From Roseicella sp. DB1501 (GTDB lineage: Bacteria; Pseudomonadota; Alphaproteobacteria; Acetobacterales; Acetobacteraceae), in NCBI RefSeq assembly GCF_013112485.1, contig NZ_JABFHG010000008.1, forward strand, positions 124,001 to 188,000: a stretch of DNA of 64,000 bases, given 5' to 3'. Under the pieces are notes generated by a model. That model was not told the DNA's origin. It saw only the letters and a program-made list of their open reading frames with translations, and made no database searches. This document shows positions 59,461-61,273 of the stretch, piece by piece. Made by a program: the position numbers and the translations under genes. Position 1 is the first letter of the stretch, and each line of letters opens with the position of its first letter.

Positions 59461-61185
59461 CTATTTGCGGCTGCGGCTGGTCGTGCCGCGCCGCGTCCCA
59501 CTTGAGCGGCCGCCCTTGGCCGCCGCCGAGGTGCGGCCGGCGGCGCCGCGCTTGCGGGTCGCGCCGGTGGCGCGCTTGGCCGCGGTGCCGGTGGCGCGCT
59601 TCGCCGTCGCGCCGGTGGTGCGCTTGGCTGCCGTGCCCGTGGCGCGCTTCGCGGCCGCGCCGGTCGCCCGCTTGGCGGTGGCACCCGTGGTCCGCTTCGC
59701 AGCCGTGCCGCTGGCGCGCTTGGCGGTGGCGCCCGTCGCGCGCTTGGTCGTGCTGCGCGTCGTCCGCTTGGCGGCCGTGCCGGTCGAGCGCTTGGCGGTC
59801 GCGCCGGTGGCGCGCTTGGTGGTCGCACCGGTGGTGCGTCTGGTCGCGGTTCCCGTCGCGCGCGCCGTGGTGCTGCGGGTCGTGCGCTTCGCGGCGGCGC
59901 CCGTCGCGCGCGTCGTGCGCTTCGCGGCGGTGCCGCTGGCGCGCTTGCTGGCGGTGCCGCGCGTCGCCGTGCTCTTGCCGGCGGCGTTGCGGGTGGTCTT
60001 GCGAGCCGTTCCCGTGGCCCGGCCCGTCGCCGCCCGCTTGGCGCCCGTGCCCCGGCTCGCGGTACCACGGCTGGAGGCGCGACCGCCCTTGGCGGCGGCG
60101 GCGGTGCGGCCGGCGGCGCCGCGCTTGGGCGCCGCCTTGGCCGCCGTCGTGCGGCGCGGGCGCCGGGCCGGCGCCTCCTCGTCGTCCGACTCCGTCGTCG
60201 CGGCGCTGCGGCGTTGGCTGCTGCGCGGCTTGGTCTCGCCATCCGTCGCCGCCGTGCTGCGGCGGCTGCGGCTCGGGCTGGCGCGGCGGCGGCGCGGCGC
60301 CTCCTCGGCGGCCGGCTCCTCCACGGGGGTGTTCTCGGGGCTTTCATCCTGCATGGCATGTTCCTCCTCGGCCTGATCGTCATCCCGGCCGGCTTTGTCG
60401 TCCTCGCTGCTGCCGCGCCCCGCGCTGTCCTGCAGCGGGTCATGGCCCCAGTTCATCAGCGAATAGCGCCAGCGCGTCTCGCTGACATCGCCCTCGGGCC
60501 GCTGCGCGAGATGACGCCGGATGTAGCCGACCACCTTCTCCAGGAAGTCGGCATCCTCCGCATCCGGCGCGCCGCGCTCCAGGATCTCGAGGATCTTCCG
60601 GCCGGACTGGTGCCCGACCGCCTCATCCTCTCCCTCATGCGTCCAGCCGACGCTCCGACTGTCCTCCGTCTCGAGCCAGTCGCGCAGTGCCGCGGCGCGC
60701 ATGTTCACCAGTTCGCGGAACGCGCGCGCGGTCGTATCCTCCTGTTCGTCCATACCGTGTCCTTTCGCCTGCTGGGCGCGCCCGCGCCGCTGCTTGCGTG
60801 CCGCCGCCGCCTTCGCGGCGACGTCGTCGGGCTGCGCCGAGTATTGCCGCCCCTGCCGCAGGTCGCGGCGCTTGGCGGCCGTGCTCCGGTCGTATTCCTC
60901 CGGCGAGAGCGCTGCGCGCGCGGCCTGCGGCAGGTAGCGCTCGCCGCTCTCGAGCGAGTCCTGGCCCGAGCGCGTGCCCCACGCCTCGTCGGTCCATGCG
61001 TCTAGATGGTTGTCCGCCGCCTTGCGGCCGACATAGCCGCCGCCGCAGCGCTGGTATTCCTGCGCGGCCATCTGCGCCTTGCGCGCCGACCATTGCCCCG
61101 GCTTGCCGCCCTTGTCGCCTTCGGTGATCTCGGACTTCACGCGGTCCCACAGCGCAGGATCGGATTTGCGTGCAATGCCGGCCAT
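59461..61185 (-). CDS. DUF5872-DUF3140-histone H1-like fusion protein
   Basis: A single 574-codon frame with three parts. Residues 1-75 resemble DUF5872 (KSDPALWDRVKSEITEGDKG, QMAAQEYQRCGGGYVG). Residues about 145-250 resemble DUF3140 (RAFRELVNMRAAALRDWLET, GHQSGRKILEILERG, RRHLAQRPEGDV). From 278 on there is an acidic patch and then a very basic Ala/Thr/Lys/Arg tail like bacterial histone H1 (HctB/AlgP type). Strong ribosome-binding sites precede the internal ATGs at 60753 and 60354, so the parts may also be made separately. A nucleoid-binding role is inferred from the tail; the two DUF domains have no known function to me. Confidence 0.8.
   Translation of the reverse strand: MAGIARKSDPALWDRVKSEITEGDKGGKPGQWSARKAQMAAQEYQRCGGGYVGRKAADNHLDAWTDEAWGTRSGQDSLESGERYLPQAARAALSPEEYDRSTAAKRRDLRQGRQYSAQPDDVAAKAAAARKQRRGRAQQAKGHGMDEQEDTTARAFRELVNMRAAALRDWLETEDSRSVGWTHEGEDEAVGHQSGRKILEILERGAPDAEDADFLEKVVGYIRRHLAQRPEGDVSETRWRYSLMNWGHDPLQDSAGRGSSEDDKAGRDDDQAEEEHAMQDESPENTPVEEPAAEEAPRRRRASPSRSRRSTAATDGETKPRSSQRRSAATTESDDEEAPARRPRRTTAAKAAPKRGAAGRTAAAAKGGRASSRGTASRGTGAKRAATGRATGTARKTTRNAAGKSTATRGTASKRASGTAAKRTTRATGAAAKRTTRSTTARATGTATRRTTGATTKRATGATAKRSTGTAAKRTTRSTTKRATGATAKRASGTAAKRTTGATAKRATGAAAKRATGTAAKRTTGATAKRATGTAAKRATGATRKRGAAGRTSAAAKGGRSSGTRRGTTSRSRK
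59548..59949 (-). repeat. Tandem 24-bp coding repeats in the basic tail
   Basis: Residues 413-546 of the fusion protein are built of octads of the form T-G-x-x-A-K-R-x. From residue 449 to 545 a K or R recurs exactly every eight residues, thirteen times (449, 457, 465 and so on to 545). At DNA level this is an imperfect 24-bp tandem array. Such arrays change length readily by slippage in frame. Confidence 0.8.
60352..60369 (-). promoter_or_regulatory. Internal ribosome-binding site and ATG for the histone-like part
   Basis: On the minus strand GAGGAGGAA (60361-60369) precedes ATG at 60352-60354 with good spacing, at codon 278 of the fusion frame, just where the acidic/basic histone-like part begins. 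A comparable site, GAAAGGACACGGT before ATG 60753, marks the beginning of the DUF3140 part. Separate translation of these modules is therefore possible. Confidence 0.6.
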
Positions 61186-61273
61186 GCTGGGTTCCGTGTC
61201 GGGCGGTTGCGGCAGGGAACGTCACGACACGGCAAGCGTTCCCGCGCGCCGCCCGATGCGGCACGGCACCGCC

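Follow-up and report, generated by a model that had tools for sequence, protein, structure and literature searches.

Apparent fusion of an overlapping DUF5872-DUF3140 gene pair into one basic-tailed protein behind a putative general stress promoter in Acetobacteraceae

AlgP and HupB/HupS carry a long basic, nearly acid-free C-terminal tail. One paper describes AlgP as helping the even spacing of polyphosphate granules (PMC9239181), and two others link overlaps such as ATGA or GTGA between neighbouring genes to translational coupling, with such pairs reportedly often encoding subunits of a complex (PMC6728339, PMC10666635). For DUF3140 and DUF5872, no described function was found in the full text of 5.39 million open papers, where DUF3140 is not named and DUF5872 is named in one paper, in a gene table. 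Here, we analyze a gene of Roseicella sp. DB1501, located in a stretch of 64,000 nucleotides (the window), which joins a DUF5872-like module, DUF3140 and a basic tail. Comparison with relatives indicates that the gene almost certainly arose by fusion of a coupled two-gene pair; the broader proposal, that a stress-induced, DNA-associated pair has been fused into one chain, has in our judgement an even chance of being right.

The fused gene is a single open reading frame on the minus strand (59461-61185; all features below lie on this strand unless stated otherwise), which encodes 574 amino acids followed by a stop codon and, in a genome match search, has one match, itself, in its own genome. 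Module 1, which is DUF5872-like, spans residues 1-131 (60793-61185) and is followed by a linker that differs between orthologues in the locus comparison (residues 132-144; 60754-60792). Within module 2, the Pfam profile and the fold model place DUF3140 (PF11338) at residues 156-244 (60454-60720). An acidic stretch with a net charge of -10 (residues 254-300) leads to the tail (residues 301-574; 59464-60285), a segment of Ala, Thr, Gly, Lys and Arg with 27% Lys/Arg, 3% Asp/Glu and a net charge of +66, in which Ala, Lys, Arg, Thr, Gly and Ser together make up 95% of the residues. Part of it is encoded by a tandem array of a 24-bp repeat (59533-59838), corresponding to an 8-residue unit. Residues 276-574 match no Pfam family at E ≤ 10, and the whole protein matches no NCBIfam family at E ≤ 1. 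The first-pass annotation, made from the letters alone, rightly described one frame joining two small domains to a basic tail.

The same annotation's assignment of DUF3140 is borne out by the Pfam search (102.8 bits, the cut-off being 25; E 1.4e-29, covering positions 2-92 of the 92-position profile); the domain occurs once in the genome. The model of module 2 is confident (pLDDT 93.6, pTM 0.86), consists of six helices and matches no solved fold (best Foldseek E 2.9, best Z 3.2), and its sequence finds no solved structure at E ≤ 1. With a net charge of -11, module 2 of the window protein is acidic compared with a family mean near zero. The name DUF5872 for module 1 appears to hold by family and not by direct score: module 1 of the window has no Pfam match even at E ≤ 10, whereas its relatives straddle the 27.5-bit cut-off of DUF5872 (PF19197). 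A module in genome G021, 64% identical to that of the window, scores 30.7 bits, followed by those of Azospirillum (28.5, annotated as DUF5872), Stutzerimonas (27.6), Marivita (27.3) and Phaeobacter (26.3); module 1 of Pseudomonas locus L043 gives no DUF5872 match.

Judged by its profile matches, module 1 is itself a compound of two phage families, its N-terminal half (residues 11-51; 61033-61155) matching phrog_17747 (E 1.3e-13) and its C-terminal half (residues 55-131; 60793-61023) matching phrog_14910 (E 1.6e-22), neither of which has an assigned function. The two halves are encoded by separate, overlapping genes in Pelagibacter phage HTVC035P (1 nt overlap), Roseobacter phage CRP-9 (4 nt) and Methylophilales phage MEP401 (8 nt); we note these split pairs at L203 4938-5365, L214 2845-3614 and L215 2953-3370. 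In MEP401 the large terminase gene comes immediately after the two halves, in S-CRES1 both are in one gene with a lysozyme gene nearby, and in HMO-2011 the best place, situated where the lysozyme and terminase genes are, takes in just the second half. Two joined pieces were present in 9 of 20 matched phage records, with the frames examined in five records. A scan of viral contigs confirmed at least 598 of 600 candidate stretches. Mean charge per 100 residues is +19 for viral and +8 for bacterial versions of module 1. The fold model (pLDDT 85.3, pTM 0.54) is confident on either side of residues 51-70, which form a loose stretch, and resembles viral predicted structures only, among them the DUF5872 protein of giant virus CeV-01B (Foldseek probability 0.99, E 0.024) and, for the first half, a 57-residue phage protein; against solved structures, the best matches were E 0.86 in the PDB and Z 2.3 for the model, and E 0.25 for the sequence. 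DUF5872 proteins appear to be shared with phages and giant viruses.

Modules 1 and 2 lie in one frame in six genomes (G000, which is that of the window, G002, G004, G039, Belnapia arida and a Craurococcus bin), the last two being loci added by the collection of named loci alongside many separate pairs. Because the fusion is common to six genomes, sequencing error, the alternative that the first-pass annotation had proposed to check by comparison with relatives, is ruled out as its cause. Where the two modules are separate neighbors, as in G010 and G021, the gene ends overlap in all 25 pairs counted among the matches listed: by 4 nt in 22 (ATGA in 15, GTGA in 7), by 8 nt in two and by 17 nt in one, the lengths being taken from the nearest in-frame start candidate and the count leaving out G052 and G044, in which module 1 precedes a broken or fragmentary DUF3140. 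Even in Marivita, where the module order is swapped, there is a 4-nt ATGA overlap. The named loci are the best 80 of 564 confirmed and the viral loci the best 80 of at least 598, so that shares computed from them are not unbiased frequencies. Since overlapping genes are out of frame with each other, joining them took a frame change in addition to the loss of a stop codon. The first-pass notion of three cistrons merged by stop loss is thus right in that two genes have merged, as 25 separate overlapping pairs and six fused genomes attest, and wrong in the mechanism of stop loss alone. For the tail as a third original cistron, the notion is unsupported: when the 1.5 kb that follow module 2 in the named loci (less where a locus is cut short) were scanned by composition, no separate tail gene was found, the sole hit, in L085, lying in another frame of module 1. 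Beyond the synteny within Acetobacteraceae, no other recurrent neighbor emerged among the matches listed. By eye, the linker of the fused genes L059 and L065 is new sequence compared with L011 to L014.

Matches to the fused gene were found in 13 of 99 genomes, its own included, mostly from the same genus and family. In a tree of 85 mutually related DUF3140 rows, which omits DUF3140 segments shorter than 85 amino acids and five loci without DUF3140, 13 tailed rows form a clade with support 99/91; nested inside is a clade of eight, comprising the six fused genes together with G003 and G001, with weak support (90/52, SH-aLRT 52). Across the tree, six rows are fused to module 1, 17 are labelled long-tailed (six fused, six beside module 1, four alone, one with a decayed module 1) and the other 68 are neither. 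The fused label requires three changes on this tree, which may represent one gain of the fusion and two losses. In G003, a sister species, module 1 has decayed, showing stop codons, frameshifts and missing conserved residues, with module 2 and the tail intact; this pseudogene occupies about 1496-2000 of L015, where the promoter and the internal start are still in place. At the locus of the fused gene, module 1 was not found in the stretches examined of G001, G025, Siccirubricoccus and Roseomonas mucosa; G001 and G025 have module 2 with the tail there, and G001 carries a copy of module 1 elsewhere (L024). Module 1 has been lost or broken twice within the genus; in the stretches examined of G007 and G020 it is present without a recognised DUF3140 beside it. 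Such erosion would suit a reading in which the fusion is a neutral accident without a function of its own, in a clade that is losing the module 1 partnership. We regard this as quite improbable, given that, in the four fused genomes compared, dN of module 1 is 0.17-0.24 against a dS of 0.47-0.62, which argues that the module is under selection where it is kept (dN was below dS in all 21 pairs computed), and that the promoter and the joined frame are common to at least three genera.

Whether the old junction still serves as a start is a separate question. The first-pass annotation had placed an ATG with a strong Shine-Dalgarno sequence before each of modules 2 and 3; the ATGs exist, M145 at 60751-60753 and M278 at 60352-60354, but a strong signal at both is not confirmed. 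The AAAGGA stretch preceding M145 (60760-60765) has an anti-Shine-Dalgarno energy of -4.6 kcal/mol, equalled or beaten upstream of 31.5% of the 577 codons of the frame. The energy of -11.3 kcal/mol at AGGAGGAA (60361-60368), preceding M278, is reached upstream of only 1.6% of the codons, yet in 80% of 500 trials a synonymous reshuffling of the Glu-rich peptide yields a signal no weaker, so that the strong signal is explained by the Glu codons of the encoded peptide. Signal strength as evidence for nested starts was accordingly rejected, being not significant in the window under synonymous resampling. At the position of M145 the signal is stronger in G002, G004 and G039 than in the window, and it exceeds the chance given by the peptide only in Belnapia and Craurococcus (P 0.01), which have no Shine-Dalgarno sequence at the position of M278. 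These energies are what one would expect if only the full-length fusion were made and the internal ATGs were leftover methionine codons with no initiation today, and the junction codon of G039, which is GTG, fits this reading, too; we consider it a serious contender that falls somewhat short of an even chance. Against it, a start codon is found at the junction in all eight fused or once-fused genes (ATG in seven, GTG in G039), and G003 and G001 retain module 2 and the tail without a working module 1 at the locus, together with the junction start codon and the promoter. With module 1 broken in G003 and missing at the G001 locus, the internal start must serve if a protein is made at all; this evidence, better than that of the energies, lends support to an internal start of module 2. 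For the window itself, we weigh internal initiation at M145 as evenly balanced; initiation at M278, a doubtful third start in view of the locus comparison and the energies, seems improbable. Nested products, as the annotation proposed, are therefore plausible for module 2 with the tail, the third start being only suggestive.

Upstream of the fused gene, a motif scan identified a perfect match to GGAAC-N16-CGTT (61242-61218), with the -35 box GGAAC at 61238-61242 and, 16 nt from it, the -10 box CGTT at 61218-61221, ending 32 nt before the start codon. This is the arrangement of an EcfG-type promoter: general stress promoters of Sphingopyxis have the form GGAAC-N16-CGTT, GGAAC and GCAAC being the two most frequent -35 boxes (PMC7083833), and the Sphingomonas motif is GGAAC-N17-20-GTT (PMC6599016). 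The entire window contains two matches against 0.24 expected, the second (plus strand, 61216-61240) being a near-palindromic overlap of the same site. Within the tailed clade, 12 of 13 genes have the EcfG-type motif in front of them, farther upstream (-313) in Siccirubricoccus, and the thirteenth, that of Roseomonas mucosa, has GCAAC-N17-CGTT. Among 43 mostly alphaproteobacterial rows, which are not independent, GGAAC-N16/17-CGTT occurs within 180 nt in 12 and GCAAC-N16/17-CGTT in 14 others (background per 180 nt, 0.005 and 0.008, respectively), leaving 17 with neither form. The genome encodes an ECF sigma factor that reaches 29.7 bits with Pfam PhyR_sigma2 (cut-off 27) and also passes the general ECF cut-off, but passes no specific NCBIfam cut-off among the 25 matches listed; the adjacent NepR-like gene stays below its cut-offs (Pfam 23 bits against 25.7, NCBIfam 17.9 against 100). 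Located at 712-1329 and 1441-1599 of L213 (G000:C45), with a further sigma-like gene seen by eye upstream, these two genes are possibly the core of the general stress response of this bacterium. We conclude that the fused gene is likely transcribed from the EcfG-type promoter during general stress. Of the first-pass guess at a stress-linked or nucleoid role, the former gains strong regulatory support, whereas the latter is supported only indirectly.

Gene neighborhoods indicate that DUF3140 has two alternative partners, Hva1_TUDOR or module 1, with both families occurring alone as well. Of the 85 tree rows, 41 among the matches listed (L068-L120) have an Hva1_TUDOR gene (DUF2945, PF11160) directly before DUF3140; 38 of these are actinobacterial, and the others come from Azohydromonas, Truepera and a Gemmatimonad, for a total of four phyla. 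When the nearest start candidate is taken, the two genes overlap in 31 of the 41 pairs and are separated by 2 to 14 nt in the remainder; alternative starts exist at some loci. Another 31 rows have module 1 as a neighbor of DUF3140 or joined to it, and one has it in decayed form; 12 rows have neither partner, and none of the 85 has both. Upstream of the DUF2945-DUF3140 pair, GTTT-N13-17-GGGTA, a site of the SigB type (PMC8346170), is found in 19 of the 38 actinobacterial loci (background 0.006 per 250 nt), all in Micromonosporaceae, where it precedes 19 of 20, and in none of the 18 others, including 11 from Streptomyces; a looser GNNT form occurs in nine of the 38, including one Actinomadura. 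The Roseicella genome encodes one DUF2945, on another contig, and the best match of the DUF2945 sequence among solved structures has an E of 0.075. Genes annotated next to DUF3140, each in single records, encode a catalase-peroxidase, a catalase family protein, trehalose synthesis and UdgX, with nothing telling in other records; in Caballeronia (L205), the genes after DUF3140 bear the annotations radical-SAM DNA modification/repair protein and UdgX.

The partnership of module 1 with DUF3140 has limits. Five named loci among the matches listed (L046, L049, L051, L057 and L061) have module 1 without DUF3140, as do plasmid records of Azospirillum and Phaeobacter, where no DUF3140 is annotated nearby. 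Among plasmids, the two-module query finds 71 records and DUF3140 finds 18, none with a single place covering 80% of the two-module query. A survey of 337 genomes of the class, including that of the window, found module 1 in six and DUF3140 in two, both families thus being sparse in the class. In G340 (L032, L040), some 18 kb of the same contig separate module 1 from DUF3140, and a GGAAC-N16-GGTT site precedes module 1.

In the scenario that we favor, a two-gene operon of module 1 and DUF3140 became one frame with a basic tail in a single Acetobacteraceae/Roseomonadaceae clade, and the EcfG-type promoter would turn the fused gene on in general stress. Modules 1 and 2 would likely be held side by side in fixed stoichiometry, probably touching, and the tail would likely anchor the unit to DNA in the manner of AlgP or HupB/HupS. 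The start at M145 would, with moderate confidence, yield a second product of module 2 and the tail, so that a stressed cell makes both forms. Its most likely task would be to cover or shield DNA, or some other polyanion, while the cell is stressed or not growing. That the target is DNA is a fair guess, suggested by Rho_N-like or H1-like additions in relatives, the composition of the tail and the basic viral relatives. Against the scenario count the acidic charge of module 2 and its lack of a solved structural match, promoters that are matches to a consensus and absent in both forms from 17 of the 43 rows, the weak signal before M145, and a pairing with many exceptions. The Rho_N profile passes its cut-off on module 1 of Phaeobacter and Marivita, stays under it in four others and has no Pfam match in the window protein; by eye, module 1 of Roseomonas and Pararoseomonas loci L056, L058, L060, L062 and L067 has an H1-like tail of its own in place of a Rho_N-like end. 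An unlikely variant is that the fusion organizes a non-chromosomal object, for instance polyphosphate or storage granules, with the tail binding a polyanion as in AlgP, which this tail resembles in kind, instead of acting as a nucleoid protein. Stress control would suit starvation granules; against this variant speak the Rho_N-like ends that module 1 has in relatives, which suggest nucleic acid, and the position of some of its phage relatives close to genes for lysis or packaging.

Returning to a DNA-associated role, a generalization that we advance tentatively, and would sooner doubt than accept, is that DUF3140 may be the fixed half of an undescribed general-stress chromatin module. Its gene, overlapping or abutting that of the partner, would often pair with either of two unrelated small proteins, Hva1_TUDOR in Actinobacteria plus a handful of other bacteria and a DUF5872 protein in Proteobacteria, and would stand under stress control in two phyla, through EcfG-type promoters in Alphaproteobacteria and SigB-type ones in Micromonosporaceae; the fusion in the window would then show that the partners act together, in two nested products sharing a DNA-binding tail. 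Be that as it may, the frequent coupling of the genes and their natural fusion, along with stress-type promoters in members of two phyla, a choice of partners and relatives in viruses, turn two orphan families into a testable pair and provide concrete leads for the widespread DUF3140. The locus also offers a case of a coupled gene pair becoming one gene, in which decay of one half re-exposed the old start.

Compared with the systems closest to it, the window protein combines familiar parts in a distinct way. Its module 2 is a clear member of the DUF3140 family, but the fusion and the long tail are absent from 68 of the 85 rows. The Hva1_TUDOR-DUF3140 pair likewise places a small, on average basic protein before DUF3140; the partner family differs, however, and by Pfam the window protein has no Tudor module. 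Module 1 matches both phrog_17747 and phrog_14910, without a direct DUF5872 score in Pfam, and is one unit where phages HTVC035P, CRP-9 and MEP401 have two overlapping genes. With AlgP and H1-like proteins, the tail agrees in composition only, with no family match. Like HupB/HupS, the protein is basic-tailed, but Pfam, which finds only DUF3140 in it, detects no HU domain. Unlike AlgP and HupB/HupS, its body consists of two domains of unknown function, and its tail is built from an 8-residue repeat of Thr, Gly, Ala, Lys and Arg.
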